From assembly GCA_030532815.1 (NCBI GenBank), contig JAUNKI010000007.1, forward strand, positions 1 through 22,171: a stretch of 22,171 nucleotides of DNA, in the 5' to 3' direction. The position numbers were made by a program, and so were the translations under genes. The notes under the pieces are model-generated. The model was not told the origin of the DNA. It made no database searches and saw nothing but the letters and a program-made list of their open reading frames with translations. Below, one piece after another: positions 3,017 to 19,918 of the stretch (positions are counted from its first letter, which is position 1; each line of letters begins with the position of its first letter). Origin of the DNA: Leptotrichiaceae bacterium (lineage in GTDB: Bacteria; Fusobacteriota; Fusobacteriia; Fusobacteriales; Leptotrichiaceae).

Positions 3017-3090
3017 AAAAAATAAAAGATGGCTTTGAATAAAAAATATAATAAGTCATAACTGCAGCAGGAATGTATAATGGAAATATT

Positions 3091-3244
3091 AGAGTGTGTC
3101 TAAAAATTCAAAATTTACAATATTTTCAATTTCTTTTTAACTTTTTAAACTAACAGAGTCATAATAAAATCGATATTCTGTTATTTACAGCTTTTAAAAT
3201 TTCCGTTAAAAATCATTTGTTTTGACAGTTTTCAGATACACCCT
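3091..3244 (-). mobile_element. 154-bp MITE-like repeat, copy A
   Basis: Non-coding element with imperfect terminal inverted repeats: AGAGTGTGTCTAAAA at 3091-3105 and TTTTCAGATACACCCT at 3229-3244. Its reverse complement aligns without gaps to 19765-19918, with 24 mismatches over 154 positions by hand count. The element is flanked by TA on both sides (TTAGAGTG...CACCCTAA), which would fit a TA-targeting transposase, but no clear longer target duplication is present. It contains no ORF, so it would have to be moved by an enzyme encoded elsewhere. Orientation is given as minus so that copy B is plus. Being a repeat is certain; being a MITE is inferred from size, ends and lack of coding capacity. 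Confidence 0.75.
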
Positions 3245-3290
3245 AAGTCAAAATCGATATTTAAATTATTTCGGTGAAAAAAATCGGGAA

Positions 3291-3310
3291 TGAATGTTTG
3301 GAAAAATTAA
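3291..3310 (+). repeat. 20-bp direct repeat, copy 2
   Basis: Second identical copy of the 2997-3016 sequence, 46 bp beyond the right end of MITE copy A. Between the element and this repeat lies a 29-bp stretch (3257-3285) that resembles 11849-11877 upstream of yihY. Confidence 0.8.
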
Positions 3311-3417
3311 TGTGTGAGGTGAGGAGCCTGTAATTTTTAGAAAATAGAGTGTTTTCAGGCATGAAATAATTTTAGTTGAAAATTTTTTGTTAAAACTTTT
3401 TAAACAATATAGGGAAA

Positions 3418-3478
3418 AATAGATGCTCGACAATAAAACAGGATTATACGTTATCCTTAAATTAACGTAAATCTATTT
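3418..3478 (+). promoter_or_regulatory. Structured leader before the lipid kinase gene
   Basis: Outer arms AAATAGAT (3418-3425) and ATCTATTT (3471-3478) are perfectly complementary and enclose a second pairing, ACGTTA (3448-3453) with TAACGT (3463-3468). A competing hairpin, AGGAT (3440-3444) with ATCCT (3453-3457), uses part of the same sequence, so the two inner folds exclude each other. The structure ends 5 bp before the AAGGGG ribosome site of the gene at 3494. It could be a DNA operator, an RNA switch or chance pairing in AT-rich sequence. No known riboswitch class was recognised, and no convincing promoter was found in the rest of this gap. Confidence 0.4.
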
Positions 3479-3493
3479 AATATAAGGGGAAAA

Positions 3494-4396
3494 ATGAAAA
3501 AATCTTTGCTTGTATATAATCCGAAATCGGGAAATTCGGATATAATATTGAATAATTTTGATCTGATTACGTCGAAATTTCTGGAAAAGGGAATTACACT
3601 TACTCTTTACAGTATAAGTACAAAATATGACAGATTGACGGAAATTCTGAAAGATAAAAAGTACGACATTCTTATACTGGCGGGAGGAGACGGAACGCTC
3701 AGCAGAAGTTTAAGTCAACTTTATAATGAAAACATCGAGTTTCCCGAAATTGCTATTTTTCCTACAGGAACGTCCAACGATTTGGCAAAGTCTTTAAATC
3801 TCGGAGATGATTTGGAAAAATGGATGGACAATATAGTAAACGGAAAGGCTGAATTTACGGATTTCGGACTGATAAATGACAGTACGGTATTTCTTTCTTC
3901 CTATGCAGGAGGACTTTTTACAAAAGTATCGTATAATACTGATAAAAACCTGAAAAAGGTTATAGGAAAAGCTGCTTATCATATAAGCGGGCTGGGAGAA
4001 CTTGCAAATATGAAGAAATTTGATTTGAACATAACCCTTGATACAGGAGAAACCGTATGTGAAAAGTCCGTACTGTATATGATTTTAAACGGAAAAAGCG
4101 TAGGAGGGTTTGACGGAATAATTGATAATGCCGATATGAGTGACGGAATAATGAATATTATAATAATAAAAAATATTGAAAATCCCTTTGATATACCTCA
4201 GATTTTCCTTGATCTGATTAATAATAAACTTATTAATTACGTTTATGTGAGAACTTTAACGGCAAAAAGCTGTATTGTTGAAAAAGTAAACGAGGAAATA
4301 GGTGTAAGTATAGACGGAGAAGAAGGAAAAAATGAAAAGGCTGAAATAAAGTTTATAGGAAATAGACTTAAAATTTTTAGAAAAGTAAAAATTTAA
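3494..4396 (+). CDS. Diacylglycerol/lipid kinase family protein (DagK/YegS-like)
   Basis: A 300-aa soluble, membrane-associating kinase of the DAGK catalytic family that phosphorylates lipid hydroxyls with ATP, most often diacylglycerol or a related lipid during phospholipid recycling. The N-terminal domain has NPKSG at 9-13, the nucleotide-binding GGDGT at 64-68, and FPTGTSNDLA at 89-98, a hallmark of the family. The C-terminal beta-rich lipid-binding domain includes an SIDGEEG stretch near the end, typical of these kinases. Length matches DagK and YegS (about 300 aa). The ATG follows a strong AAGGGG ribosome site. The gene stands alone, with a 523-bp gap upstream and 181 bp downstream, so it is probably a single-gene unit controlled by the structured leader. 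The exact lipid substrate cannot be read from the sequence. Confidence 0.88.
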   Translation: MKKSLLVYNPKSGNSDIILNNFDLITSKFLEKGITLTLYSISTKYDRLTEILKDKKYDILILAGGDGTLSRSLSQLYNENIEFPEIAIFPTGTSNDLAKSLNLGDDLEKWMDNIVNGKAEFTDFGLINDSTVFLSSYAGGLFTKVSYNTDKNLKKVIGKAAYHISGLGELANMKKFDLNITLDTGETVCEKSVLYMILNGKSVGGFDGIIDNADMSDGIMNIIIIKNIENPFDIPQIFLDLINNKLINYVYVRTLTAKSCIVEKVNEEIGVSIDGEEGKNEKAEIKFIGNRLKIFRKVKI

Positions 4397-4495
4397 AGAA
4401 TATTGATAAAATAAAGAATATTGAACAAAATATAAGTGTTGTAGGAGAATAAATTATAAATATGGGAAAAAATCAGATTTATTTATATTAAGCTA

Positions 4496-4535
4496 TTGAA
4501 AAAAATTGAAAATATGGTATAAATAAATATATAAT
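4496..4535 (+). promoter_or_regulatory. Promoter for the GH57-vWA gene pair
   Basis: TTGAAA occurs at 4496-4501 and at 4506-4511. The second is 18 bp from TATAAT (4530-4535). The first is 16 bp from TATAAA (4518-4523), which also carries an extended TGG. Either pair would start transcription about 35-50 bp before the ATG at 4578. The rest of the 181-bp gap holds only a 12-bp direct repeat, AAAGAATATTGA, at 4395-4406 and 4413-4424. Confidence 0.55.
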
Positions 4536-4577
4536 GTTTTTAAGTATGAAAGAAAATTCAAATGGAGGTTGTAAGTT

Positions 4578-6167
4578 ATGAAAGGATATTTAAGTTTTGT
4601 TTTACATGCACATTTACCTTATGTAAGGCACCCTGAACACAAAGAATTTTTAGAAGAGGACTGGCTGTTTGAAGCTATTACTGAAACGTATATTCCACTT
4701 CTGGAAATGTTTGAAAATTTGACGAAAGATAGTGTTCCGTGGAATCTCACAATGACTATGTCAGGAACTCTTGTAAATATGTTGAACGATGATTTATTAA
4801 GAAAAAGATATCTTGCTCATATGGATAAGCTGATTGAATTTTGTGAGCTCGAAATAGAAAGATTAAAAGAATATCCTGATATGCTCAAAGTGGCGGAACA
4901 TAACTTATGGTTCAATAAAAGAGCGAAAACTGTATATGAAGACAGGTATATGAAAGATCTAGTAGGAGCTTTCAGAAAATTTCAGAATCAGGGAAATCTT
5001 GAAATAATTCCTGTTACTGCAACACATGGATTTCTGCCGTTAATGAAAGATTATCCTGAAGCTGTAAATGCACAGGTTTACATGGCGAAGAAAGATTATA
5101 TAAAAAATTTTAATAGAGAACCTAAAGGTATATGGCTTGCAGAATGTGCATATTATCCCGAACAGGATAAATTCCTTGAAAAACATGGAATAAGATATTT
5201 TCTTGTAGATGCACATGGAATAATGCACAGTGATCCGAGACCTGTTTACGGCATTTATTCGCCTGTTTATACAAAAAACGGAGTAGCTGCATTTGCAAGG
5301 GATCTTGAATCTTCAGAACAAGTGTGGAGTTCAGAAGTAGGTTATCCAGGAGATGGTGTTTACAGGGAATTTCACAAAGATGCAGGATATGAACTCGATT
5401 ATGAATATGTAAAGCCGTATCTTCACAGTGACGGTGTAAGAAGAAATATGGGAATAAAGTATCATGCCATTACCGATAAAAAAGGCAGCTTTAAAGCATG
5501 TTATGATCCTGATGCAGCTTATGGAAGAGCAAAGGAACACGCATACAACTTTGTAAATAACAGGTCAAAACAGATAGAGTTTCTTGCGTCAAAAATGAAA
5601 CACCGTAAACCTATTGTTGTTTCTCCCTATGATGCAGAACTTTACGGACACTGGTGGTATGAAGGTCCGATTTTTCTGGAATGGGTGTTCAGAGCGGCAG
5701 CCAAGTCAAATTTTTCGACAATAACACCTTATCAATACTTGGAAAGATATCCGACTAATCAGATAGTTGATGTAAGTATGTCAAGCTGGGGTGCAAACGG
5801 ATATTACGATGTATGGATGGACGGCTCAAATGATTATGTTTACAGACATTTACATAAAGCTGCAAAAAAAATGATAGAACTGGCAAACGGCAGAGAGCCT
5901 GAAAATGAGCTGGAATACAGAGCATTAAATCAGGCGGCAAGGGAGCTGCTTATGGCACAGACTTCCTGTTGGGAGTTTATAATGTTTACGGGGACAATGG
6001 TCGGATATGCCCATAAAAAGATAAGTGACCATGTGCACAGACTGTTTAAAATATATGAAGATTTTAAAAACGGAATGCTTGATGAAAGCTGGATAAAAGA
6101 AATAGAATATAGGGATAATATATTTCCTGAAATAGAGTACAGAATGTACAGGACTGACAGGCTTTAG
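4578..6167 (+). CDS. GH57 1,4-alpha-glucan branching enzyme
   Basis: A 529-aa cytoplasmic glycoside hydrolase family 57 enzyme with a C-terminal DUF1957-type helical region, the layout of glycogen branching enzymes such as Thermococcus TK1436. It would cut alpha-1,4 chains and rejoin them as alpha-1,6 branches. The N-terminus has the family signature HAHLPYVRHPE. The nucleophile is Glu189 in GIWLAECAYYPEQ and the acid/base is Asp352 in SPYDAELYGHWWYEGP. Trp-rich C-terminal motifs (SSWGANGYYDVW, TSCWEFIMFTGTMVGYA) fit branching enzymes rather than GH57 amylases or 4-alpha-glucanotransferases. Length fits (about 520-560 aa). A GGAGG ribosome site precedes the start. No other glycogen gene is nearby; the next gene, 39 bp on, is a vWA lipoprotein, so co-transcription does not explain the role. 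Family is certain, branching activity likely. Confidence 0.9.
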   Translation: MKGYLSFVLHAHLPYVRHPEHKEFLEEDWLFEAITETYIPLLEMFENLTKDSVPWNLTMTMSGTLVNMLNDDLLRKRYLAHMDKLIEFCELEIERLKEYPDMLKVAEHNLWFNKRAKTVYEDRYMKDLVGAFRKFQNQGNLEIIPVTATHGFLPLMKDYPEAVNAQVYMAKKDYIKNFNREPKGIWLAECAYYPEQDKFLEKHGIRYFLVDAHGIMHSDPRPVYGIYSPVYTKNGVAAFARDLESSEQVWSSEVGYPGDGVYREFHKDAGYELDYEYVKPYLHSDGVRRNMGIKYHAITDKKGSFKACYDPDAAYGRAKEHAYNFVNNRSKQIEFLASKMKHRKPIVVSPYDAELYGHWWYEGPIFLEWVFRAAAKSNFSTITPYQYLERYPTNQIVDVSMSSWGANGYYDVWMDGSNDYVYRHLHKAAKKMIELANGREPENELEYRALNQAARELLMAQTSCWEFIMFTGTMVGYAHKKISDHVHRLFKIYEDFKNGMLDESWIKEIEYRDNIFPEIEYRMYRTDRL

Positions 6168-6206
6168 AGCCTTGAAAAATAAATAAAAATTTCTGAGAGG
6201 TTTAAT

Positions 6207-7607
6207 ATGAAACGGAAAAAATTGTATTTTATAATATATCTACTTTTAGTATTATGTGTAATTACTTGCGGGAAAAAAACGGCAGAAACCGAAAAAGGAG
6301 AAAAGAAGAACGGAGCTATCAAAAGTCTTTCAGAGGAAGAACTGCAAAATAAAAAGGGACTGTTTTCGGAACATCACCTACCTGTATATGATTATGAGAG
6401 TATAACCGAATATCCTAAAGGACTCCTTGCTCCGTCAGAAAATTCAGAATACAATAAATTCAGCTCAGAACATTTTGATGAAATAGAAAAATATCTGGAT
6501 CAGTTTGAAAAAACAGAAAATGCAAGTGATGAAAAAGTCGATAAAATATTTTCTCAGTTGCTTTATCTTTATGCTGCAGATTATAAAGGTGCAAAAGATT
6601 TGAAAGAATACGGATATATTATATTTAAAAAGGACGGCATAAATCCTGTTACGGGAACTCCTTTAATTGAAAATGCCGAGGTTAATATTGAAATAATCCT
6701 TGATGCAAGCGGAAGTATGGTAAAAAAAATCGGTGATAAAACGATGATGGATATTGCAAAGGAATCCATATATAAAATGCTGGAAACATTGCCTGAAAAT
6801 GTAAATGTAGGGCTGCGTGTATACGGTCATAAAGGAAATAATACCGTAGCAGAAAAGGAAATATCCTGTAAAAGTTCGGAACTTATAAGTCCTATTTCAA
6901 AGCTTGACAAATCAGGAATTAAGGAAAAGCTTTCTTCGATTTCGGCTTCAGGATGGACACCTATCGGAGAATCTATAAAGCTCGGAGCTGAAGATTTTCA
7001 GAAATTTCAGGATAATAAAAATCTGAATATACTGTATATTATAAGTGACGGTATTGAAACATGTGACGGTGATCCTGTACAGTCGGCAAAAAGTATAGAA
7101 AGTATGAATGTAAAACCTGTTATGGGAATTATAGGATTTAATGTTAATCCTTCACAGGAGTTGAATCTGAGAAATATAGCAAAAGCCGGAAACGGACATT
7201 ATGCAACTGCCGATACGGGAGAAGTTCTTATTAAGGAGCTGATGAAAGTACATGAAATTGCTATGAGTAAGTATGACTGGAAATCTTTGGATACGACTGA
7301 TATTCTGAGAGTTTCAAACAGACATACTTTTGAAGGGAATCTGATGCTTTCAAATAATATGGACTTTCTTATTTATCATGAAGTATTTACTTTTGAAGAT
7401 ATGGTCAGATATCTTGAAAGAACAGGTAAGATAGATTCCGTTACAAGAGAAAAACTTTTTAAAAGAATAAATGACAGAAAAAACAAACTTCATGAAATTA
7501 AGAAAGAAATGAAAAATAGAAGAGAAGCGGAAATAGAAAAAATTAAAGCTGAATATACAAAAAGAATCGGAGAAGAAGCATATGTTATACTGCCTGAAAT
7601 AAATTAG
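6207..7607 (+). CDS. von Willebrand factor A domain lipoprotein (YwmC/YwmD-like vWA)
   Basis: A 466-aa exported lipoprotein. The N-terminus has basic residues, a hydrophobic core and a lipobox ending in VITC with Cys21 as lipidation site. Residues about 158-350 form a vWA domain with the MIDAS motif DASGS (Asp166, Ser168, Ser170), a SGWTPIGES segment that supplies the MIDAS threonine, and an ISDGIETCDGDP segment with the further acidic ligand. The GLRVYGHKGNN stretch resembles Bacillus YwmC/YwmD-type vWA proteins. The part between the lipobox and vWA is acidic and unassigned, and the C-terminus (about 400-455) is a charged coiled coil. It probably binds a partner in a metal-dependent way on the inner or outer membrane face; the partner is unknown. 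The gene follows the GH57 enzyme by 39 bp with its own GAGAGG site. The domain is certain, the role is not. Confidence 0.85.
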   Translation: MKRKKLYFIIYLLLVLCVITCGKKTAETEKGEKKNGAIKSLSEEELQNKKGLFSEHHLPVYDYESITEYPKGLLAPSENSEYNKFSSEHFDEIEKYLDQFEKTENASDEKVDKIFSQLLYLYAADYKGAKDLKEYGYIIFKKDGINPVTGTPLIENAEVNIEIILDASGSMVKKIGDKTMMDIAKESIYKMLETLPENVNVGLRVYGHKGNNTVAEKEISCKSSELISPISKLDKSGIKEKLSSISASGWTPIGESIKLGAEDFQKFQDNKNLNILYIISDGIETCDGDPVQSAKSIESMNVKPVMGIIGFNVNPSQELNLRNIAKAGNGHYATADTGEVLIKELMKVHEIAMSKYDWKSLDTTDILRVSNRHTFEGNLMLSNNMDFLIYHEVFTFEDMVRYLERTGKIDSVTREKLFKRINDRKNKLHEIKKEMKNRREAEIEKIKAEYTKRIGEEAYVILPEIN

Positions 7608-7680
7608 AAAAATAGAGATAATGTGCTGTTAAAAAAGCGTTTGAAAATATTATCAATTTAAATTTTTTAAACTGAGAATT

Positions 7681-7757
7681 AATAATTTGCCTGTAAAAGT
7701 CAAAAACCTGTCTAAAGGTTCAATAGCGGATTTTTATTGAGCAAATTATTTTTTTTG
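7681..7757 (+). terminator. Terminator-like three-way hairpin after the vWA gene
   Basis: Perfect 10-bp arms AATAATTTGC (7681-7690) and GCAAATTATT (7741-7750) run straight into a T-run, as at an intrinsic terminator. The 50-nt loop contains two smaller hairpins, AACCT/AGGTT (7705-7709, 7716-7720) and CAATA/TATTG (7721-7725, 7735-7739), so the RNA could fold as a three-way junction. It lies 74 bp after the vWA stop and 72 bp before the next start. It could instead be a leader element of the downstream gene. Confidence 0.55.
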
Positions 7758-7828
7758 GAGAAGGTTTAGATTATAAAAAGTTTTACTATAAGAGTATGAT
7801 TTTTATTATGAAAGAAAGGTAAATTACA

Positions 7829-8632
7829 ATGCTAAGAAATATTTTAGAAAAAAATATAATTTTTAAAAGGATAATAGGTTTTAGTTTAATGGGTTTTATT
7901 ATAACAGAATTGAATATAATATTTATTGCTCGTATAATTTTATGTTTAATTATTGTGGATTTATTAGAGCAGTTGTTTTTTAATATAATAAATAAAGTTT
8001 TAGCAGGAGAAAAATATTCTTTTTGGGTTTTTATGAAGTTTTGTAATTTTATGCAGACAGCATTTTTATTATTTATTCCTTGTGTATTAGGAATAATGTA
8101 TTTTGAAATAAATAACAAAAATTTTAATATTTTTTTTGTATATATGAGTGGTGGGGGTATATATTTTTATATCATAAGGATTATTTTAAATTTTAGAATA
8201 TACATGGAAAAAACATCAAAAAATATAGAAAAAAAAGTGATAGAAAATAAAATAAAAAAGGAAATAGAAAGTAATAATCTGGAATATAAAGAATTTCTAA
8301 TGAGAAAAGTTGAAAAAATGTTAGAAAGTAAAAAATGTTTAAAAGCGTCTAAAACTTTTTCTGATATAATATATGAAGAAAAATATCAAAAAAAATATGA
8401 AGAAATTAAACCGCATATTAAAAAAATAGTAGAAAATAGTAGAGAAAGAGTAAAAAATGCTTTTTTTCAAACAAAGATATTTTTTATGTTTTTAACTATA
8501 ATTGTAATAGGCATAATTTGGTCTGAAAATAAGGAAGGTATGTTAAAATTTTTAACTTTGGAAGCTAATCATTTTAACTTAAAGGAAAGTAATGTAATAT
8601 TGTATTTTCTTGTGTGGAATATTTTTACTTAA
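7829..8632 (+). CDS. Hypothetical membrane protein, very AT-rich
   Basis: A 267-aa protein of no family I recognise. Hydrophobic segments near residues 10-30, 32-48, 65-88 and 95-118 suggest an N-terminal membrane domain. A long Lys/Glu-rich stretch (about 120-210), probably helical or coiled coil and cytosolic, follows, then another membrane helix near 213-232. The last residues (SNVILYFLVWNIFT) begin a hydrophobic helix and stop, so the protein may be C-terminally truncated. The start has a GAAAGG site 10 bp upstream. Its base composition differs from its neighbours: sample 60-bp stretches hold 9 and 13 G+C against 24 in a stretch of the next gene. That suggests recent acquisition or relaxed selection. 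It is isolated between two terminator-like structures, so probably transcribed alone. The ORF looks real because of its length and coherent membrane pattern; function unknown. Confidence 0.7.
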   Translation: MLRNILEKNIIFKRIIGFSLMGFIITELNIIFIARIILCLIIVDLLEQLFFNIINKVLAGEKYSFWVFMKFCNFMQTAFLLFIPCVLGIMYFEINNKNFNIFFVYMSGGGIYFYIIRIILNFRIYMEKTSKNIEKKVIENKIKKEIESNNLEYKEFLMRKVEKMLESKKCLKASKTFSDIIYEEKYQKKYEEIKPHIKKIVENSRERVKNAFFQTKIFFMFLTIIVIGIIWSENKEGMLKFLTLEANHFNLKESNVILYFLVWNIFT

Positions 8633-8673
8633 AAAGTGGATGTTGAAAGATATTATATTAACACTTTTATTAT

Positions 8674-8714
8674 AGAGCGTTTCATGATAATTAATTTATG
8701 AAACAGCTCTTTTT
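8674..8714 (+). terminator. Intrinsic terminator
   Basis: AGAGC-GTTTCAT pairs with ATGAAAC-A-GCTCT (one bulged A) around an AT-rich loop and is followed by five T's. It lies 42 bp after the AT-rich membrane protein gene and cleanly separates it from the cysteine desulfurase promoter. Confidence 0.85.
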
Positions 8715-8752
8715 AAATTTCAAAATTAAAGTATAAAAATTACTGAAATTCA

Positions 8753-8761
8753 TGTTATAAT
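8753..8761 (+). promoter_or_regulatory. Extended -10 promoter for the cysteine desulfurase-thiI region
   Basis: TGTTATAAT is a perfect TATAAT preceded by the TGn extension. No good -35 hexamer sits 17 bp upstream, which extended -10 promoters can tolerate. Transcription would begin about 105 bp before the chosen ATG at 8871. Confidence 0.6.
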
Positions 8762-8870
8762 ATAAAACAAAACAAGTAAAATTTGTTTTTTGAAGAAATG
8801 GAAATTTATAAATCTAAAAAATATAAAAATTAAGCTTAAAAAACACTCGATTAAGGAAAAAGGAAAAGAT

Positions 8871-10019
8871 ATGATATATTTAGACAATGCTGCCAGTACA
8901 AAACCGAAAAAAGAAGTGATAGAAGCAATGACGCAAATAATGGAAAAAAATTACGGTAACCCCGATGCAATTCATGAATTTTCTCACGGGATATTTATGA
9001 AAATAAAAGAAGCGAGAAAAACAATAGGGAATTTTTTAGGGCTGGACTTTTCAAGGATATATTTTACGGCGGGAGGCTCTGACGGTAATAATCTCCTAAT
9101 ACAGGGAATTATAAAAGCAAATTCCCAAAAGAAGAAACATTTGATTACAACAAAAATTGAACATCCTTCAGTTTATGAAACATTCAGACATTATGAAACC
9201 GAAGGATTTGAAGTGGATTTTCTTAATGCGGATAAAGACGGATTTGTAGATCTGGAACAGCTGGAATGTATTTTAAGGGAAGATACGCTTTTAGTTTCAA
9301 TAGGGGCAGTAAACAGTGAAACAGGGGCAATACAGAATATAGAAAAAATAGCTGAAATAATTAAGAAAAAAAACAGGAATATTTATTTTCACACTGATTT
9401 TGTACAGGGCTTGGGCTGTACGGATATAAAGTTCGATAAAATTCCGGTAGACGGGATAACTGTCAGCGGGCACAAAATTTATGCACCTAAAGGAATAGGA
9501 GCAGTTTATATTGCAAATGGAGTAAAATTGACAAATGTAATTTACGGTTCAAATTCTGAAAACGGAATTGTAAAAAGAACAATGCCTGCAGAATTAATAA
9601 CTGCATTTGCAAAAGCTGTAGAATTAGCCGATAGAAATTATAAAAAAGATATGGAACATATGCAAAATCTGAAAATAAACCTTGCAGAAAAAATAAAGAA
9701 GAATATAAGCGATATTAGAATAAATTCCTTGCTTGACACGGAGAAATCCAGTCCGAAAGTTCTGAATGTCTCATTTAGAGGAGTGAAAGGTGAAGTGCTT
9801 ACTCATTTTTTAGGAATGAATGAAATTTATGTTTCCACAGGTTCCGCCTGTTCTTCAAAAAAAGGAAACAGTAAAGTACTCACGGCTATGGGATTGAACA
9901 ATGAAGAAATCGAAGGAGCATTAAGGTTCAGTTTCTCATGGGAAAATACTTCAACAGAAATTGATAAGGTAGTGGAAATTTTGAAAAGCAGTGTTGAAAA
10001 AATAAGAAAAATGAAATAA
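8871..10019 (+). CDS. Cysteine desulfurase, NifS/IscS family (ThiI partner)
   Basis: A PLP enzyme that takes sulfur from L-cysteine as an enzyme persulfide and passes it on. The reading frame is open from a TTG at 8790, but family members begin with (M)IYLDNAAT, and the ATG at 8871 gives exactly this after an AAGGAAAAAGG ribosome site, so I chose it (382 aa). Seen: PLP-phosphate site AGGSDGNN, His98 in IEHPS, the PLP Schiff-base Lys202 in SGHKIYAPKG, and the persulfide Cys327 in STGSACSSKKG on the mobile loop. The next gene is thiI, as in the Bacillus nifZ-thiI pair, so its main acceptor is probably ThiI for tRNA 4-thiouridine rather than an Fe-S scaffold; no iscU or sufU is present. A 355-bp gap separates the two genes, so they may not share one promoter. 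Family certain, partner inferred. Confidence 0.9.
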   Translation: MIYLDNAASTKPKKEVIEAMTQIMEKNYGNPDAIHEFSHGIFMKIKEARKTIGNFLGLDFSRIYFTAGGSDGNNLLIQGIIKANSQKKKHLITTKIEHPSVYETFRHYETEGFEVDFLNADKDGFVDLEQLECILREDTLLVSIGAVNSETGAIQNIEKIAEIIKKKNRNIYFHTDFVQGLGCTDIKFDKIPVDGITVSGHKIYAPKGIGAVYIANGVKLTNVIYGSNSENGIVKRTMPAELITAFAKAVELADRNYKKDMEHMQNLKINLAEKIKKNISDIRINSLLDTEKSSPKVLNVSFRGVKGEVLTHFLGMNEIYVSTGSACSSKKGNSKVLTAMGLNNEEIEGALRFSFSWENTSTEIDKVVEILKSSVEKIRKMK

Positions 10020-10272
10020 TTCAATATGTAATTTTTTCAAAGTAACACTTCCGATAGAGAAACTTTTAAATTTAAAAATATTTATTACATTGCAATCAAA
10101 AAGAAGTAACAATATAAAATTTATTCTGACTAAATAGAAATTTTGTAATACAAAATCAGGTATTCTAAAAAGATAAAAAAACACGGTAAAAAATTAAAAT
10201 TATAAATATTGAATTACTGTTTTCAACTGATAAATTTATTATGATTTTAACTTTATTAATCATATAAAAATA

Positions 10273-10320
10273 GAAAGCTCGGAACACCTATCCGATATTC
10301 GAAAAATTGATATAGCTTTC
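10273..10320 (+). promoter_or_regulatory. Nested hairpin upstream of thiI
   Basis: GAAAGCT (10273-10279) pairs with AGCTTTC (10314-10320). Inside, TCGGA (10279-10283) pairs with TCCGA (10291-10295), leaving an AU-rich third segment. The element sits 54 bp before the chosen thiI start, with no T-run, so it is more likely a leader structure than a terminator. The rest of the gap (10020-10272) is AT-rich, and I see no gene, clear promoter or known RNA in it. Confidence 0.35.
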
Positions 10321-10374
10321 AGTTAAATAATCAGGATAATGAAGAAAATAATCAAAGGAGAAAGGAAATATAAA

Positions 10375-11562: not shown

Positions 11563-11566
11563 AAAC

Positions 11567-11590: not shown

Positions 11591-11597
11591 ATCAAAA

Positions 11598-11758: not shown

Positions 11759-11899
11759 GGGGGCTTAAAATTTAGAAATGGTTTTAAGTGAAAGTGTAGT
11801 TAGATTGTAATAATAGAAATATATACTTGAATTATAAGTAAAAACCCAACATTCAAATTATTTCAACGAAAAAAACCTTTTGAAATTAAAGGAGAATAT

Positions 11900-13180
11900 A
11901 TGAAACTGAAATTCGATATATTAAGGATAAAGGAAAAACTGAGTAAAGAAAACATAAAAAAATATATAAGAGAAATGTTCCAGATGATAAATCTCATTTA
12001 CAAAAATTATAGTGACGGAGAAACCCAAATACTTGCATGTACATTGACATATTTTTCGATGATTGCAGTATTTCCTGTTCTGGCATTAATTCTCGGAATT
12101 ACTAAAGGGTTCGGTCTTGATAAGCTCTTCATACAGAAAATATTTGATCTTGTACCGCAAAACGAGGGAATGGTGAGGACTGTCCTTGATATAGCGAACA
12201 AGCTTCTGGCGTCTACTGAGGGAAGTATCCTTACAGGGGTCGGAGTTGTAATATTAATTAATTCAGCTATAAAAGTATTGATGATGCTTGAAGATTCCTT
12301 TAATAAAATATGGCGTATAAACAAAAATCGTTCCATAACGAGAAGAGTGGTAGATTATGTGGCAATAGTATTTTTAGGTCCGATATTGTTCATTGTAATA
12401 ATAGCAACAAATTCTTTTGTTGCTGAAAAAATGAGTACATTTTTTTTCGGAGGAGCGATTATTATAAATGTTTTTTTGCACATATTAGGACCTCTGTTTT
12501 ATATATTTCTGTTTACACTTTTATTTTATATAATACCGAATACTAACGTAAAATTAAAACCTGCTCTTATATCGGGAATAATAACGGCATTTCTCTGTTT
12601 TATACTGAAATTTGCATTTACATGGCTTCAGTCGTTCATTACGAGATACAATGCCATTTACGGGAGTTTGGCTTTAATACCTATATTTCTTACATGGGTT
12701 CAATATATATGGGTAACTATACTGTTGGGAGGACAAATTGCTTTTTCAATACAGACATCCGACGAATTTTTATATAATGAAAGAATTGAAATGCCGATAA
12801 AATTGAAAAAAGAAGCGGGACTGTTGATTTTATCACTGATAATAAACAGATTTAAACAGAAGGAAGAACCTTATACGCACGGTGAACTGACTAAAAAATT
12901 GGGAATGGAGGCACTGTTTATAAAAGATATATTGTCGGAACTTGAAAAAATGAATTTTGTAAATGAAGTTATAACGGACAAAAATGAAGAAGCCAAATAT
13001 CAGATAGCATATGATCCTGAAGCTCTTTCCCTTGAAACGTTCATAAACAGATTTGAAGGAAAGAATTCTGACTATTACGGCAATATTTTCAATAATTTGA
13101 CTGAAGAAGAAAAAGAACTTCTTGAAAATATAAAGGAAAAAACGCTGTTTAAGGATAAGGAACTTCTGAAAAATATATAG
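11900..13180 (+). CDS. YihY/BrkB (UPF0761) family inner-membrane protein with C-terminal winged-helix-like domain
   Basis: A 426-aa integral membrane protein. The N-terminal 290 residues match the YihY/virulence factor BrkB family: ACTLTYFSMIAVFPVLALILGI near 46-67, the conserved loop with VLMMLEDSFNKIWRI near 126-140, and further membrane segments near 108-128, 152-172, 185-211, 222-240 and 255-283. This was once annotated as ribonuclease BN, which is no longer accepted; the molecular function is unsettled. Family members from E. coli are about 290 aa, so the 140-residue cytoplasmic tail is an extension. Its first part (about 300-372: THGELTKKLGMEALFIKDILSELEKMNFV) reads like a winged helix. 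A GGAG site precedes the ATG. rmuC begins 27 bp after the stop, so the two are likely co-transcribed. Confidence 0.88.
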   Translation: MKLKFDILRIKEKLSKENIKKYIREMFQMINLIYKNYSDGETQILACTLTYFSMIAVFPVLALILGITKGFGLDKLFIQKIFDLVPQNEGMVRTVLDIANKLLASTEGSILTGVGVVILINSAIKVLMMLEDSFNKIWRINKNRSITRRVVDYVAIVFLGPILFIVIIATNSFVAEKMSTFFFGGAIIINVFLHILGPLFYIFLFTLLFYIIPNTNVKLKPALISGIITAFLCFILKFAFTWLQSFITRYNAIYGSLALIPIFLTWVQYIWVTILLGGQIAFSIQTSDEFLYNERIEMPIKLKKEAGLLILSLIINRFKQKEEPYTHGELTKKLGMEALFIKDILSELEKMNFVNEVITDKNEEAKYQIAYDPEALSLETFINRFEGKNSDYYGNIFNNLTEEEKELLENIKEKTLFKDKELLKNI

Positions 13181-13207
13181 GGAACTTAATAACGGATTGG
13201 AGAAAAA

Positions 13208-14581
13208 ATGGAAACTGAAACGATAAATAATATACAGATATTAAGAAACCATATGGAAAATAACGACCGTATTATTCTTATATTAGTTATAATAACGGGA
13301 CTTTTATGTACAGCGATTCTTTTCTATATTTTAAAAACAGGTAAAAAACAGGAGGAAGAACTGTTCTATTTAAAAGATGAAATTGAGAAAATATTGACAG
13401 AAGGTTTTGTAGCAAGTACCGAAAAAAATATAACTGAAAATTTTAAGCAAATCAGTGAAATGGAAAAAAGTATAACCTTGAATACAAAAAATAACCTGTT
13501 GCAGGGAATTAACGAGCTTAATAGAGAATTATCGGGGAATAATGAGAAATTACTTATAAAATTTACGGACTTCGGGACGAAATTAGGTCTGACAATGAAT
13601 GAAAATAATCAAAGATTGTCGGAAAATATTAATAAATTTAAGGACGAATTTAAAAAGGAAATAAATGATGATTTTGAAACATTGAACAGAAAAATTGAAA
13701 ACAGACTTGATATGATGAACACAAAAGTGGAGGAACGTTTATCCAAAGGTTTTGCAGAAACGACAAAAACTTTTGGAAATGTACTGGAAAGACTCGGCAA
13801 AATTGATGAAGCCCAGAAAAAAATCGAAGCACTGTCGAGTAATGTCGTCTCTTTACAGGATGTACTGACTGATAAGAAAAGCAGGGGAATATTCGGAGAA
13901 GTACAGATGTATCAGATACTCGGTTCCATATTCGGAGAAAAAAACGATAAAATATACAGAAAACAGTATAAACTGTCCAACGGAACAATGGCTGATGCCG
14001 TTATATTCGCCCCTGAGCCTATGGGAAATATAGCTATTGATTCCAAATTTCCCCTTGAAAATTACAGAAGAATGTATGATAACGAACTTACACTTCCGGA
14101 AAAGGAAAGTGCAAGAAAAGAATTTTCGTTAAATCTGAAAAAGCATATTGATGATATTTCTTCAAAGTATATAGTTCAGGGAGAAACAGCCGAACAGGCT
14201 ATATTGTTTTTACCTGCTGAAGCCGTGTTTGCCGAAATAAATGCCTACCATACGGAAATAATAGAATATGCATACAGGAAAAATGTCAGAATAGCTTCGC
14301 CTACAACTCTTATGTCCGTTCTTACGACATTGCAGGTAATAATGATGAACATTGAAAGAGACAAATACGCACATATTATTCAGGAAGAGTTGATGAAGCT
14401 GAATAAGGAATTCGACAGATATCAGGAAAGATGGAGTATTCTTGAAAAAGACATTGAAAAAGTAACGAGAGATGTAAAGAATATAACGACAACGTCAAAT
14501 AAAATAACTAAAAGATTTAATGAAATATCAAATGCAGATTTTACCGAAAAAGTAACTGTAAAAAATGAAGAACTTCAATAA
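13208..14581 (+). CDS. rmuC: RmuC-family protein, predicted membrane-anchored nuclease
   Basis: A 457-aa protein of the RmuC family (DUF195), linked in E. coli to limiting inversions at short inverted repeats. A single membrane helix at about 21-42 anchors it. A long coiled coil (about 45-215) follows, then a predicted PD-(D/E)xK-like nuclease domain (about 222-400) with SRGIFGEVQ (Glu231), MADAVI (Asp263) and IDSKFP (Asp278, Lys280), and ILFLPAEAVFAEI and VRIASPTTLMSVL as family landmarks. A charged coiled tail ends the protein. The start has TTGGAGAAAAA upstream. Its proximity to a region dense in inverted repeats (11567-11859) is suggestive, but nothing shows a direct link. Biochemical nuclease activity is predicted from the fold only. 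Confidence 0.92.
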   Translation: METETINNIQILRNHMENNDRIILILVIITGLLCTAILFYILKTGKKQEEELFYLKDEIEKILTEGFVASTEKNITENFKQISEMEKSITLNTKNNLLQGINELNRELSGNNEKLLIKFTDFGTKLGLTMNENNQRLSENINKFKDEFKKEINDDFETLNRKIENRLDMMNTKVEERLSKGFAETTKTFGNVLERLGKIDEAQKKIEALSSNVVSLQDVLTDKKSRGIFGEVQMYQILGSIFGEKNDKIYRKQYKLSNGTMADAVIFAPEPMGNIAIDSKFPLENYRRMYDNELTLPEKESARKEFSLNLKKHIDDISSKYIVQGETAEQAILFLPAEAVFAEINAYHTEIIEYAYRKNVRIASPTTLMSVLTTLQVIMMNIERDKYAHIIQEELMKLNKEFDRYQERWSILEKDIEKVTRDVKNITTTSNKITKRFNEISNADFTEKVTVKNEELQ

Positions 14582-14602
14582 TTGTTGTATAGTAAAATAA
14601 TT

Positions 14603-14631
14603 TTGAAAGAAAATGTAGATAATGGTATAAT
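14603..14631 (+). promoter_or_regulatory. Promoter of the aromatic amino-acid cluster
   Basis: TTGAAA (14603-14608) and TATAAT (14626-14631) are separated by exactly 17 bp, and TGG before the -10 adds an extended -10. It lies 22 bp after the rmuC stop and 80 bp before the pheA start. The leader contains no T-box motif or Phe-codon-rich peptide that I can see. Confidence 0.8.
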
Positions 14632-14710
14632 AATCAGAAATAACTGTCGGAAACTCAGAATAAAAATAAAAACAGGGCAGAGTGAAATTTAAACTGAAAA
14701 GGGGATTGCC

Positions 14711-15910
14711 GTGAATAATACAAGTAAAGAAGAAAAAGAATTTCAGAAAGAATTTTCCGATTTGGAAGAAATAAATAAAAAGTTGCATATGATAGACAGT
14801 GAACTTGTAAAATTAATCGGAAAAAGATTTGAAATAATGGAAGAAATAATATCAGGAAAAGAAAAAGGACTTGAATTTTCGGATAAAAATACGAAAACGG
14901 AAATAATAAAAGAAAATATTGATAATATAGGGGACAGAGATTTTAAAAGATATGTCGAACTTATATTAAAGGATATTATGGATACAGGCAGGGAATACGG
15001 AAACTTTAAAAGGGGAACATCTGCACAGTATGTAAACAATCTGGAATTTTACGGCAAAAAAATAGGTTATACAGGCATACCGGGTTCTTATGCTTATGAA
15101 GTTCTTATAAATTTAATAAGAAATAGTGAAAATTCGGGGAAATATGAAGAAATTGAAAAAAATATTTATAACTGGAATTCCCATAAGGAATTAGTCCGCA
15201 AAGTAAGTACAGGTGAAATGGATATAGGAGTTATTCCCATTGAAAATTCCTTAGTAGGAGAAGTAAGGGACAGTATAGACCTTATAAATAATGCAGACAT
15301 ATATATAATAGGAGAAGTAAAACATAAAATAGAACATAATCTGCTGGGAATAAAAGGGAGCAAAATAGACGACATAAAAAATGTGTATTCTCATGAGCAG
15401 GCATTTCTTCAATGTTCCAAGTTTTTGGAAAATCATACTTCGTGGAAAACCGTAAAAATGTCAAATACTGCACTCAGTGCAAAATATATTATGGAAACGG
15501 GAGTTCCGGAAAATGCATGTATAGCAAATATGAAAACGAAAGAAATGTACAATCTTGAACTACTGAAAGAGGATATAAATGATTCAAAGGAAAATTATAC
15601 GAGATTTTTCGTAATATCCAATAAAAATATTATTTCGGAGGGAAGTAATAAAATAAGTATCATTACAAGTACCAAAAATGAAGCGGGGGCATTAATGGAT
15701 CTGCTGAAAATATTTTCGGATTACAGTCTGAATATGGTCAGCCTGAAATCAAGACCGATAATAAACAAACCTTGGAGATATTATTTTTATATTGATTTTG
15801 AAGGAAGTCTGAAAGACGGAAAAGTTAAGGAAGCTCTTGAAAAAATACGCCTTAAATCGAACTATCTCCAAATTCTCGGAAATTACAGAGTGTATAACCT
15901 GACAATATGA
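14711..15910 (+). CDS. pheA: PheA: chorismate mutase-like domain, prephenate dehydratase and ACT domain
   Basis: A 399-aa P-protein that makes phenylpyruvate from prephenate. Three parts: an AroQ-like helical domain (about 15-100), prephenate dehydratase (about 115-300) and a C-terminal ACT domain (about 312-395). The dehydratase has GIPGSYAYE (122-130), IPIENS, YSHEQAF and the catalytic TRF at 297-299. The ACT domain has GAL (326-328) and KSRP (346-349), matching the Phe-binding GALV and ESRP motifs, so Phe feedback is likely. In the mutase domain only Arg39 and Lys50 match E. coli Arg28 and Lys39; the positions of Arg11, Arg51, Glu52 and Gln88 seem lost, so mutase activity is doubtful. Translation starts at GTG (14711), six bases after AGGGGAT. 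First gene of the cluster and directly behind the strong promoter. Dehydratase call is firm. Confidence 0.93.
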   Translation: MNNTSKEEKEFQKEFSDLEEINKKLHMIDSELVKLIGKRFEIMEEIISGKEKGLEFSDKNTKTEIIKENIDNIGDRDFKRYVELILKDIMDTGREYGNFKRGTSAQYVNNLEFYGKKIGYTGIPGSYAYEVLINLIRNSENSGKYEEIEKNIYNWNSHKELVRKVSTGEMDIGVIPIENSLVGEVRDSIDLINNADIYIIGEVKHKIEHNLLGIKGSKIDDIKNVYSHEQAFLQCSKFLENHTSWKTVKMSNTALSAKYIMETGVPENACIANMKTKEMYNLELLKEDINDSKENYTRFFVISNKNIISEGSNKISIITSTKNEAGALMDLLKIFSDYSLNMVSLKSRPIINKPWRYYFYIDFEGSLKDGKVKEALEKIRLKSNYLQILGNYRVYNLTI

Positions 15911-15956
15911 AAAATGAAAGATTGAATTAAATAAAATATTTGAAAAATTTTAAATT

Positions 15957-15998
15957 ATACCGGCAAAATATTTTTTAAATAATGCTAAAATCCGGTAT
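15957..15998 (+). promoter_or_regulatory. 7-bp inverted repeat between pheA and the DAHP synthase gene
   Basis: ATACCGG (15957-15963) and CCGGTAT (15992-15998) are perfect complements separated by an AT-only-like 28-base spacer. The right arm ends 18 bp before the DAHP synthase ATG and just ahead of the AAGGAAAGG ribosome site. No T-run follows, so it is not a standard terminator. It could be an operator half-site pair or an RNA hairpin that affects translation. Confidence 0.4.
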
Positions 15999-16015
15999 TT
16001 AGAAGGAAAGGAAAA

Positions 16016-17038
16016 ATGATGATTATAAAAATTGACGGAAGTGTAAATTATGACACATTAAAAGGGATAATTGAAAGACTTGAAAATGAAAATAGAGTAA
16101 AAGTGGAACTTATCAGAGGAAAGGAATATTCAATACTCGGATTGGTGGGGGATATAAGTACTATAGACATTAAACATATACAGTCTCTTGATTATGTACT
16201 TGATGTTCAGAGAATACAGGAACCGTATAAAAGAGCAGGGAGAAAATTTAAATCAGGAGATACGACAGTAAAAGTCGGAAATGTGGAAATAGGAGGAAAT
16301 AATCTTGTAATGATGGCAGGACCGTGTTCGGTAGAAAGTGAGGAACAGATACTGGAAACGGCAAGAGCCGTAAAAAAAGCAGGAGGAAATATACTAAGAG
16401 GAGGAGTAGTAAAGCCGAGAACATCTCCTTATGCTTTTCAGGGGTTGGGAATGGAAGGAATAAAACTTATGAAAAAGGCTAAAGAGGAAACAGGTCTGCC
16501 TATAGTATGTGAAGTAATGTCCATAGAACAGCTCCATGAATTCGGACCTCATCTGGATATGATACAGTTAGGTGCAAGAAATATGCAGAATTTTGATTTA
16601 CTGAAAGAAGTAGGAAAAACTAAGATTCCTGTACTGCTTAAAAGGGGATTGAGTGCCACAATAGAAGAATGGCTCATGTCTGCAGAATACATACTTGCAG
16701 GGGGAAATGAAAATGTTGTATTGTGTGAAAGGGGAATAAGGACATATGAAACTGCATATAGAAATGTAATCGACCTGAATGCGGTTCCTATGATAAAGAA
16801 AGTAAGTCATTTGCCTATAATAGTGGATTCTGCACACGGGACGGGGAAATTCTGGATGGTAAAGCCTCTTGCAATGGCAGGTGTTGCAGCAGGAGCTGAC
16901 GGATTAATGGTCGAAGTGCATCCTGAACCTGATAAGGCACTCTCTGACGGTCCTCAGTCATTAAAACCTGAAGTATTTGAAGATTTGATGAAAGATGTGG
17001 AAGCGGTAGCAAGTGTTTTAGGAAAAAGTTTTAAATAA
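16016..17038 (+). CDS. aroF: 3-deoxy-7-phosphoheptulonate (DAHP) synthase, type I-beta
   Basis: A 340-aa enzyme that condenses phosphoenolpyruvate with erythrose 4-phosphate, the first committed step of the shikimate pathway. Residues 1-75 form a ferredoxin-like regulatory domain, and a TIM barrel follows, as in Thermotoga maritima DAHP synthase, where this domain gives Tyr/Phe feedback. Metal ligands are Cys104 (GPCSVES), His274 (DSAHGTGK), Glu300 (VEVHPEP) and Asp311 (SDGPQS), each two residues beyond the T. maritima positions, with RGGVVKPRTSPYAFQG and LLKRG for substrate binding. Two adjacent ATGs (16016, 16019) follow AAGGAAAGG; either could be used. The gene sits between pheA and tyrA, the two branch genes whose products would inhibit it. 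Unlike Bacillus AroA(G), the N-terminus is not a chorismate mutase. The symbol follows common naming of this class and is a convention. Confidence 0.95.
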   Translation: MMIIKIDGSVNYDTLKGIIERLENENRVKVELIRGKEYSILGLVGDISTIDIKHIQSLDYVLDVQRIQEPYKRAGRKFKSGDTTVKVGNVEIGGNNLVMMAGPCSVESEEQILETARAVKKAGGNILRGGVVKPRTSPYAFQGLGMEGIKLMKKAKEETGLPIVCEVMSIEQLHEFGPHLDMIQLGARNMQNFDLLKEVGKTKIPVLLKRGLSATIEEWLMSAEYILAGGNENVVLCERGIRTYETAYRNVIDLNAVPMIKKVSHLPIIVDSAHGTGKFWMVKPLAMAGVAAGADGLMVEVHPEPDKALSDGPQSLKPEVFEDLMKDVEAVASVLGKSFK

Positions 17039-17070
17039 ACCGGAATTGTATTTTGGGAAAGCAGGAGAAA

Positions 17071-17964
17071 ATGAAAAGTGAAAACAGAAATATTAATTAT
17101 AAAAAGAGAATATCCGAAACAGTTGTAACAATAGTAGGTCTGGGAGTAATAGGAGGTTCTTTTGCACACAGTCTGCAAAATATAGGTGTTAAGGAGATTT
17201 TCGGAGTGGATACTGATGAGAGAACTTTATTTAAAGCAAAAGAAAGAAAAATTATAACAGAAGGATTTACAAATCCTGAAATCCCCCTTGGAAAATCCGA
17301 CCTTGTCATAATTTCTCTTTATCCTGAAATAATGAAACCTTTTATTTTAAAATATATAGGTGATTTTAAAGAAGGAGCAGTTGTTACCGATGTTACGGGA
17401 ATTAAAGGGAAAATAATGGAAGATTTGAAACCTGTTCTGAAAAAATCGAGTAAAAATATTGATTTTATTTTCGGACATCCTATGGCAGGGAGAGAGAAAA
17501 GAGGAATTGATTTTGCCGATTCGGAAGTTTTTAAAAATGCCAACTATATACTTATAAAAAATGATGAAAATAAAAAGGAAAATGTGGAATTTTTAACGGA
17601 AATAATAAAAAATATAGGATTTAAAAATGTGAGCCTGCTTACGGGAAAGGAACATGATGAAATAATTGCTTTTACAAGCCAGCTTACTCATGCTATTGCT
17701 GTTGCTCTTGTAAACAGTGATAATCAGAAATATAATACTGACAGATTCATAGGAGATTCATACAGAGATTTAACGAGAATTGCCAAAATAAATGAAGATT
17801 TATGGTCCGAGTTGTTTATGGGAAATAAGGAAAATCTCCTTGAAGTAATTAAACAGTTTGAAAATGAGCTTGACATAATTAAAACTGCACTTAAAAATAA
17901 TAATACGGAAATTTTAAAGGAAAAATTCATTGCTTCAACTTTAAGAAGGGAAAAAATAGATTAA
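17071..17964 (+). CDS. tyrA: Prephenate dehydrogenase TyrA
   Basis: A 297-aa NAD(P)-dependent enzyme that oxidatively decarboxylates prephenate to 4-hydroxyphenylpyruvate on the way to tyrosine. The Rossmann fingerprint GLGVIGGS lies at 23-30 and Asp47 (GVDTDE) favours NAD. His136 in FGHPMAGREKRG is the likely catalytic histidine, SQLTHAIAVAL (His207) and YRDLTRIA (Arg232, Arg236) are further family motifs in the helical C-terminal domain. The frame continues upstream to a TTG at 17053, but only the ATG at 17071 has a GCAGGAG ribosome site, and the extra residues are not conserved. No ACT or chorismate mutase domain is attached. The gene starts 32 bp after the DAHP synthase stop. Arogenate specificity cannot be ruled out. 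Confidence 0.93.
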   Translation: MKSENRNINYKKRISETVVTIVGLGVIGGSFAHSLQNIGVKEIFGVDTDERTLFKAKERKIITEGFTNPEIPLGKSDLVIISLYPEIMKPFILKYIGDFKEGAVVTDVTGIKGKIMEDLKPVLKKSSKNIDFIFGHPMAGREKRGIDFADSEVFKNANYILIKNDENKKENVEFLTEIIKNIGFKNVSLLTGKEHDEIIAFTSQLTHAIAVALVNSDNQKYNTDRFIGDSYRDLTRIAKINEDLWSELFMGNKENLLEVIKQFENELDIIKTALKNNNTEILKEKFIASTLRREKID

Positions 17965-18036
17965 TTTTTATGGAAGATTTTCCGACACTTGCAAAGTATT
18001 TAAAAGTATATTGAATAAAAATAAGAGGTGTAAATT

Positions 18037-18624
18037 ATGGAAAATAAATATATAAGAAAATTAACAGGGGATAATGTATACCTGTCACCGATATCTCTTG
18101 AGGATGCGGAAAAGTATACTCACATGGTTAATGATATTAAAGTTTCTGTAGGACTTGGTCAGTCTGCCTATACAGGAATTGTAGATTTTGAAAGTGAGAA
18201 GGAATTTTTAACTTTATTGAAAAAAGAAAAAAATTTTGCAGTGAGATTAGTCGAAAATGATGAGTTGCTCGGTAATATAGGATTTAATTCCCTTGATTTT
18301 ATAAACAGAGCAGGAGTAATAGGAATAATGCTCGGAAATGAGAGGCATCAGGGGAAAGGATACGGAACAGAAGCGGTAAATCTTATACTTGATTACGGTT
18401 TCTTCCTTCTTAATTTAAGAAGTATATCCCTGAGTGTATTTGAATATAATGAGATTGCCTATAACCTTTATAAAAAAGTGGGATTTAGGGAAGTCGGAAG
18501 GCTTAGAAAGAAAATAGAAATAATGGGGCAAACTTATGATGAAATAATAATGGATATATTAAAAGAAGAGTTTCAGCCTGTTTATATAAAAAGAGAAATT
18601 ATAAAAAGGTACAGATTAAAATAA
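18037..18624 (+). CDS. GNAT-family N-acetyltransferase (RimJ/RimL-like)
   Basis: A 195-aa cytoplasmic acetyltransferase. Motif A for acetyl-CoA binding, RHQGKGYGTEA, spans 103-113 after the beta strand GVIGIMLGNE, and the C-terminal part has NEIAYNLYKKVGF (138-150), the usual alpha4 and motif B in RimJ/RimL and SpeG-like enzymes, followed by MDIL at 172-175. A clear AGAGGTG ribosome site precedes the ATG. Substrate unknown: protein N-termini, polyamines or small molecules are all possible. It lies in the middle of the aromatic cluster, 72 bp after tyrA and 18 bp before aroB. That close spacing implies co-transcription with aroB, but nothing in the protein suggests a role in the pathway. Possibly a passenger gene. 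Confidence 0.85.
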   Translation: MENKYIRKLTGDNVYLSPISLEDAEKYTHMVNDIKVSVGLGQSAYTGIVDFESEKEFLTLLKKEKNFAVRLVENDELLGNIGFNSLDFINRAGVIGIMLGNERHQGKGYGTEAVNLILDYGFFLLNLRSISLSVFEYNEIAYNLYKKVGFREVGRLRKKIEIMGQTYDEIIMDILKEEFQPVYIKREIIKRYRLK

Positions 18625-18642
18625 TTATGGAAGGAGAAAAAA

Positions 18643-19740
18643 GTGAGAAAACTTAATGTAGGTTTAGGGAAAAATTCTTATGACATAATTATCGGAGAAA
18701 ATTATACGGAAAATTTTTCAGAGTATATAAAAAAAGTATATTCAGGAAATAATTTATTTGTAATAACAGACAGTAATGTTCATGAAATATATAAAAATAA
18801 GTATGATGAAATGTTCGGATATTTTAAATATACGGTATATGTACTGAAAGCAGGAGAAAAAAATAAGCACATCGGAGTTATGCAGGGAATTTATTCAGCT
18901 ATGATTAAAGCGGGAATAAAAAGGAATGATATGATAGCAGCTTTCGGAGGGGGAGTCACGGGAGATATTGCAGGATTTGCAGCAGCATCTTATTTAAGGG
19001 GAATTGATTTTATACAGATACCTACAACGATAGTCTCCCAAGTAGACAGCAGTGTAGGCGGTAAAGTGGGAGTTGACTTGCCTGAAGGGAAAAATCTTGT
19101 AGGAGCATTTTATCAACCTCGTCTTGTACTGATTGACTCGTCATTTTTAAATACGCTTACAGACAGGTATTTTTATGACGGATTTGCAGAAATAGTAAAA
19201 TACGGATGTATATGCGATAAGGCTCTATTCAGACAACTTACGGATATTGTAAAAAATACCGTTGAGAATGGAAAGAAACATATTGGAAAATATAAAGAGA
19301 TACTAAGAAAAGAGCTGATGAAAAATATAACGGATTTAATATACAAGTCATGTGAAATAAAAAAGAAAATAGTGGAAAAAGACGAAAAAGAAAGCGGACT
19401 AAGAATGATACTGAATTTCGGGCATACAATAGGGCATGCCATAGAGCAGTATACCGATTATGAAAAATATTCCCATGGAGAAGCTATTTCCACAGGAATG
19501 ACACACATGGTAAAAATAGGGGAAAAAAAAGGAATTACTGAAAAAGGCTGTTCCGAAAAACTGGAATATTTACTGAGAGGACTGAATCTTCCCACAGATA
19601 TAGAATATTCCCGAAATGAAATAGCTGAAATAATGAAAAGAGATAAAAAAAGTGTAGATGACGGAATAAATTTCGTGTTTTTAAAGGAAATAGGAAACGC
19701 GGAAATAATTAAAATGAAGGAAAAAGAAATTTTTGAATAA
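18643..19740 (+). CDS. aroB: 3-dehydroquinate synthase AroB
   Basis: A 365-aa NAD- and divalent-metal-dependent enzyme that cyclises DAHP to 3-dehydroquinate. The NAD-binding GGGVTGDIAGF spans 102-112. PTTIVSQVDSSVGGKVGVDLPEGKN (127-151) is the signature substrate loop. Metal ligands are Glu183 (FAEIVKYG), His261 (NFGHTIGHA) and His278 (SHGEAIS). Length matches the family (about 350-365 aa). Translation starts at GTG (18643) after AAGGAGAAAA. There is a Lys/Glu-rich stretch between about 205 and 250, present in many members in shorter form. The stop is followed not by the next pathway gene but by a 237-bp gap with MITE copy B. Confidence 0.96.
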   Translation: MRKLNVGLGKNSYDIIIGENYTENFSEYIKKVYSGNNLFVITDSNVHEIYKNKYDEMFGYFKYTVYVLKAGEKNKHIGVMQGIYSAMIKAGIKRNDMIAAFGGGVTGDIAGFAAASYLRGIDFIQIPTTIVSQVDSSVGGKVGVDLPEGKNLVGAFYQPRLVLIDSSFLNTLTDRYFYDGFAEIVKYGCICDKALFRQLTDIVKNTVENGKKHIGKYKEILRKELMKNITDLIYKSCEIKKKIVEKDEKESGLRMILNFGHTIGHAIEQYTDYEKYSHGEAISTGMTHMVKIGEKKGITEKGCSEKLEYLLRGLNLPTDIEYSRNEIAEIMKRDKKSVDDGINFVFLKEIGNAEIIKMKEKEIFE

Positions 19741-19764
19741 AAAACAGGAAAATGACATTCTGTC

Positions 19765-19918
19765 AAGGTATAGCTGAAAACTGTCAAAATAACGGATTTT
19801 TAACGGAGATTTTAAAAATTGTAAAAAATAGAATGTCGATTTTATTATAATTCTGTTAATTTAAAAAGCAAAAAAGAAATTGAAAATATTATAGATTTTG
19901 AGTTTTCATACACACCTT
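19765..19918 (+). mobile_element. 154-bp MITE-like repeat, copy B
   Basis: Same element as 3091-3244 in opposite orientation, ungapped, with about 84% identity by hand count (130 of 154). Ends are AAGGTATAGCTGAAAA (19765-19780) and TTTTCATACACACCTT (19903-19918), imperfect inverted repeats. It fills most of the aroB-aroA gap. TGACA/TGTCA (19753-19757, 19761-19765) forms a small hairpin that touches its left end. No target duplication is obvious. Non-coding. Confidence 0.75.

Follow-up and report, generated by a model that had tools for sequence, protein, structure and literature searches.

Two inverted 152-bp repeats in a Leptotrichiaceae contig are probably MITEs of the IS5 family

We analyzed a window of 22,171 nucleotides from a Leptotrichiaceae bacterium (assembly GCA_030532815.1, contig JAUNKI010000007.1, positions 1 to 22,171) that contains two inverted copies of a short non-coding repeat, called copy A and copy B here. 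Both copies are very probably (about 90%) non-autonomous miniature inverted-repeat transposable elements (MITEs) of the IS5 family, members of one gene-free family of about 152 bp that was moved in trans by an IS5-type transposase. We observed the family itself, its ends and the flanking TA, MITEs in Leptotrichia that have the ends of a complete insertion sequence (IS) residing in the same genome, and one empty site with a single TA. MITEs are generally short and non-coding, carry the terminal inverted repeats of a full IS, are bordered by a target duplication and lie mostly between genes. The window family resembles the bacterial MITEs in all of this, being short and non-coding, with IS-shared terminal inverted repeats, a target duplication and many mostly intergenic copies; bacterial MITEs have been reviewed (PMC10969869). 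The MITE profile proposed in the initial annotation of this DNA, which had been made from the letters of the window, was thus borne out.

When positions 3091-3244 (reverse complement) were aligned with 19765-19918, we obtained 154 columns with 0 gaps and 24 mismatches, 18 of which are transitions, the same end-to-end inverted pair with mostly transitional differences as described at the outset. Within the window, BLAST matched the two copies with an E value of 9.7e-47 and 84% identity, and the next-best match to either copy was an AT-rich stretch of 41 bp (E 2e-4). Past the ends of A and B the letters in common are TAATAT, on one side only. We counted the flanking TA as target duplication, which leaves elements proper of 152 bp each (Table 1). 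Neither copy contains a gene, and the absence of an open reading frame (ORF) noted before holds apart from the edge of an antisense ORF (19458-19787, minus strand) that extends 22 bases into copy B; this ORF is unlikely to be a gene because it overlaps aroB.

Table 1. Coordinates of the two MITE copies, their terminal inverted repeats and their target duplications in the window
Feature	Position	Strand	Remark
MITE copy A, 152 bp	3092..3243	-	9.9% from family consensus
TA, target duplication of copy A, adjoining right end	3090..3091	.	
TA, target duplication of copy A, adjoining left end	3244..3245	.	
Copy A left terminal inverted repeat	3227..3243	-	GGGTGTATCTGAAAACT
Copy A right terminal inverted repeat, inward reading	3092..3108	+	GAGTGTGTCTAAAAATT
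MITE copy B, 152 bp	19766..19917	+	11.8% from family consensus
CA, target duplication of copy B, probably a decayed TA	19764..19765	.	
TA, target duplication of copy B	19918..19919	.	
Copy B left terminal inverted repeat	19766..19782	+	AGGTATAGCTGAAAACT
Copy B right terminal inverted repeat, inward reading	19901..19917	-	AGGTGTGTATGAAAACT

An inverted orientation, a distance of about 16.5 kb and 84% identity would also suit a segmental duplication, in which an immobile piece of non-coding DNA was copied in inverted orientation within the contig long ago. The genome of the window (G000; 1.85 Mb, 230 contigs, 82.5% complete), however, holds many more copies. Searches with copy A gave at least 33 matches and searches with copy B at least 37, three of them only 24-56 bases long; these numbers are lower bounds, as the best 40 of 165 first-look candidates were scored for copy A and 40 of 184 for copy B. 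A family profile, built from 31 sequences (27 from G000 and 4 from a second genome, G002, with the poorly aligned L026, L027, L028 and L053 excluded) that partly are the counted copies themselves, recognized 37 of 40 candidate stretches in G000. Some of these copies are partial, and at least 37 are present in the genome, so that the many same-ended copies sought by the initial annotation do exist. Its refuting case, in which there would be only two copies and no sharp boundary, does not describe what we found. The 37 copies lie on many contigs, have different flanks and TA-type ends, and have homologues in Leptotrichia. One pair, L018 (G000:C106:91-245) and L020 (G000:C208:89-242), both near contig ends, has a near-identical body and a common right flank with a different left end, and may reflect either duplication of a segment or an artifact of assembly. 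Because of the copy number and the ends, we rejected that explanation for copies A and B and give it a negligible probability.

Most copies are intergenic: 34 of the 37 do not overlap an ORF of at least 100 codons by more than 20 bases, although five were assessed on just 500-700 bases. The 31 near-full copies in G000 diverge from the consensus by 14.4% on average (497 transitions, 160 transversions), and L016 and L026 carry large internal deletions.

The family consensus ends are TA-GGGTGTGTCTGAAAACT...AGTTTTCAGACACACTC-TA. Imperfect inverted repeats are present as annotated, but they exceed the 15-16 bp given for them, since in the predicted fold of the consensus some 38 bases of one end are paired with those of the other, interrupted by short bulges. 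The TA noted on both flanks of copy A is there, and TA targeting also holds at the level of the family. The profile match reached both ends in 22 copies (the other 15 of the 37 are partial or end-decayed; end positions were extrapolated gap-free), and 9 of them are flanked by TA at both ends, 12 at a single end and 1 at no end; wherever TA is missing, the dinucleotide is TG, CA or CG. Left ends (26 aligned) have TA in 15 cases, TG in 7, CA in 3 and CG in 1; right ends (31 aligned) have TA in 22, CA in 5, CG in 3 and TG in 1. TA makes up 9.2% of the dinucleotides in the window; the TA columns are part of the profile, which biases the count somewhat toward TA. Just outside the TA, the neighboring base is T at 23 of 26 left ends in G000 and A at 27 of 31 right ends. 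The 19-bp terminal pattern at up to 3 mismatches matched 38 times in G000, compared with once for a reversed control. Three lone end-like sequences (L308, L309 and L310, 3 mismatches each) occur in G000 without a MITE body and are maybe remnants of other elements; the three candidate stretches that the profile did not recognize contain no more than such a lone end.

The candidate partner IS is found in Leptotrichia buccalis (G030), a mouth bacterium from the sister genus. The 17-bp end at no more than one mismatch is present in 8 of 33 Leptotrichiaceae genomes and occurs 47 times in L. buccalis. This genome contains six IS copies, five of 945 bp and one of 935 bp, with the ends GGGCGTGTCTGAAAACT and with TA on both sides in all six; a seventh copy is partial and carries a stop. 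In all five 945-bp copies, ORF1 (125 codons) and ORF2 (148 codons) are open and differ in frame, while ORF1 of the 935-bp copy is shorter (97 codons). Both ORFs score above the 110-bit cut-off of the IS5 family transposase model NF033580 (150.7 and 133.4), and their Pfam matches are DDE_Tnp_1 (PF01609) and DUF4096 (PF13340). By these sequence matches the IS belongs to the IS5 family and would, by likeness only, fall into its IS427 group, which it resembles in the two ORFs in different frames, the IS5-family transposase and the 2-bp target duplication. The IS427-group elements listed in a published account (PMC3281130) are 832-865 bp long, nearly all have 2-bp duplications (one has 4 bp), and some members have two overlapping ORFs with a frameshift motif. 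The L. buccalis IS differs in its length of 945 bp, and the window elements differ in having no ORF. One full IS copy in L. buccalis (right flank of L148) lies near an aroB-like frame, as copy B lies near aroB, which is probably a coincidence. Another genome, G038, has a broken relative of the IS, in pieces 71% and 65% identical, with a GGGCATGTCTGAAAAC-type end on either side.

Elements of about 150 bp with IS-type ends coexist with the IS in the L. buccalis genome. Among 20 of these MITEs, raw coordinates place TA at both flanks of 14, and the remaining 6 show it as well after their BLAST-trimmed ends were read by eye; counting these six, all 26 IS and MITE copies are bordered by TA on each side. 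The form YTA...TAR was seen in 14 of the 20 L. buccalis insertions that have TA at both flanks by raw coordinates. The L. buccalis MITEs diverge from their consensus by only 2.6% on average, and four pairs among the 20, at different sites, are identical over the compared stretch, which indicates a recent amplification. The family is thus old and decaying in the window's genome (14% divergence) and was recently amplified in L. buccalis. The G000 and Leptotrichia MITE consensus sequences are identical at 114 of 150 positions. Matches of more than 100 bases to an L. buccalis copy were found in 12 of the 33 genomes searched, namely G000, G002 and 10 of 13 Leptotrichia genomes; among the matches listed, the remaining genomes had only shorter, low-scoring ones or none (at most 25 candidates were scored per genome, so the counts are lower bounds).

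We also compared 68 distinct sequences (of 73; matches below 110 model positions and nearby second hits were dropped) in a midpoint-rooted tree. The copies from Leptotrichia group in a single clade (support 0.995) that is nested among those of G000, and the G000 and G002 copies are intermixed. We read the tree as pointing to separate amplifications in two genera; the nesting would also fit a transfer between genera or a misplaced root. A 34-kb plasmid of Leptotrichia hofstadii apparently carries a family member (NZ_AP019824.1:25359-25413; G031:C2:25363-25505), which might be how the family passes from species to species.

For one L. buccalis MITE, L160, the joined flanks aligned over nearly the whole query in 6 of 12 other Leptotrichia genomes with 89-96% identity. 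G034 and G004 aligned at 68%, four more aligned as two adjoining pieces (125 bases apart in G037), and a full insert was present at this site in none of the 12. The junction is aligned in six genomes, four of which keep a single TA, with a one-base length difference beside it, while two are deleted across the site. At the sites of copies A and B, G001, a genome of the same genus without a MITE match, lacks the element and has a short spacer in both places, and the element is also missing from site A of the related metagenome-assembled genome L179. The gene next to site A found no match in G002, and this site could not be compared there. The comparison of empty sites proposed initially hence succeeded for the L. 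buccalis MITE and fell short of the exact base for A and B.

These data are best explained by a mechanism in which the DDE transposase of an IS5-family, IS427-type IS would recognize the common end GGGYGTGTCTGAAAACT and would insert the MITE at TA, often within YTAR, with duplication of the TA. The transposase of the L. buccalis IS, or of a lost relative, probably moved the copies in the window's genome. Several results weigh against this reading. An intact cognate transposase did not turn up in any of the genomes G000, G001 and G002, none of the three having an NF033580 match above the cut-off (G000 being 82.5% complete). The full IS anticipated by the initial annotation is known from L. buccalis, and in the incomplete assembly of the window's own genome a stop-bearing fragment was all that was found of it. 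ORF2 of the L. buccalis IS finds only stop-bearing fragments, of 53 residues at 32% in G000 and of 43 residues at 44% in G002. In an ungapped comparison, the left end of the MITE diverges from both IS ends past base 17; the L. buccalis IS is therefore not the parent of the MITE over its whole length, and the parent would be a relative. A base-exact empty site was not obtained for A and B, as the flanks or spacers of relatives are too diverged, and site B of G002 holds 115 other bases.

The fragment in G000 (L311:1068-1272, on C88) is a stop-bearing ORF2 match with 32% identity over 53 residues and an end-like AGGCTGTATCTGAAAAA nearby, possibly a dead IS; as a parent it was rejected because the match is too weak. 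G001 has three 25-bit NF033580 matches (C1:380175-380669, 525192-525686 and 1281907-1282401) in open frames of 319-339 codons, probably another transposase type.

IS630/Tc1 elements, too, typically duplicate TA. A MITE whose mover was some other TA-targeting transposase, for example of the IS630/Tc1-mariner type and as yet unseen in this genus, would be in keeping with the lack of an intact IS5-type transposase with these ends in G000, a genome that was not searched for IS630. The ends argue otherwise. A 17-bp end of the type seen in the MITE, together with most of the 23 bases that follow it at the MITE's right end, is found at both ends of the L. buccalis IS (by eye, over its first 40 bases the right end of the MITE is identical to the IS end at 33 positions for G000 and at 36 for L. 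buccalis), and the broken IS relative in G038 has such an end on both sides. We consider the involvement of another transposase type quite improbable.

We also considered a dispersed regulatory or structured-RNA element, of whatever origin, kept under selection. Such a role would suit the predicted fold of the consensus, a single long hairpin, and the position of five copies (L002, L008, L022, L024 and L030) within 25 bases of an ORF. Conservation averaged over ten bases ranges from 0.60 to 0.93, follows no simple pattern along the element and is highest in blocks 11-20, 91-100 and 131-140, of which 91-100 is interior and unexplained. RNAalifold, however, found no pair common to 29 aligned copies (29 of 31 near-full copies, without L016 and L026 with their large internal deletions), and 147-nt stretches of the window copies fold no better than shuffled sequences (z -0.95 and -0.85). 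A 147-nt stretch of a young L. buccalis copy does fold better than its shuffles (z -6.16), and folding in the young copy and not in the old ones fits decaying terminal repeats better than a maintained RNA. Rfam had no match in the window. With neither an Rfam match nor a common fold, a structured RNA was rejected, and selection for a regulatory or RNA function appears highly improbable.

An origin from a phage or plasmid was rejected as well. The phage collection contained nothing that matched copy B, viral contigs lacked the exact 19-base end of the consensus, and plasmids contained no match to the whole L. buccalis IS, only a 55-bp end match in NZ_AP019824.1 from L. hofstadii and one of 57 bp in an Aeromonas record. 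In a scenario that we regard as unlikely, the MITE family was orphaned in one genus, where it survived the loss of its transposase, and was re-amplified in another, perhaps after plasmids had carried it between species, with its interior kept across genera for a role other than transposition.

MITEs are a well-known kind of element, and this family appears to be undescribed so far: the literature searched (the first 20 results where lists were long) showed no description of a MITE from Leptotrichia or other Leptotrichiaceae. With this family, Leptotrichiaceae have MITEs for which a target rule and a candidate IS as partner can be named, and no fewer than 37 scattered, mostly intergenic repeats of the G000 assembly are accounted for. 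Its copies could serve as insertion markers that are still fresh in L. buccalis and decayed in the other genus; otherwise this is ordinary mobile-DNA biology.

As named by eye from translations, the neighbors of copy A are a patatin/BamA-like gene and a diacylglycerol-kinase-like gene, and those of copy B are aroB and aroA. An exact 20-bp direct repeat, TGAATGTTTGGAAAAATTAA, flanks copy A at 2997-3016 and 3291-3310 of the window, 294 bp apart, and has no further site at 0 or 1 mismatch in G000. The spacer between the genes flanking copy A measures 523 bp in the window compared with about 45 bp in G001 and L179, and the gain at site A therefore exceeds the MITE alone.

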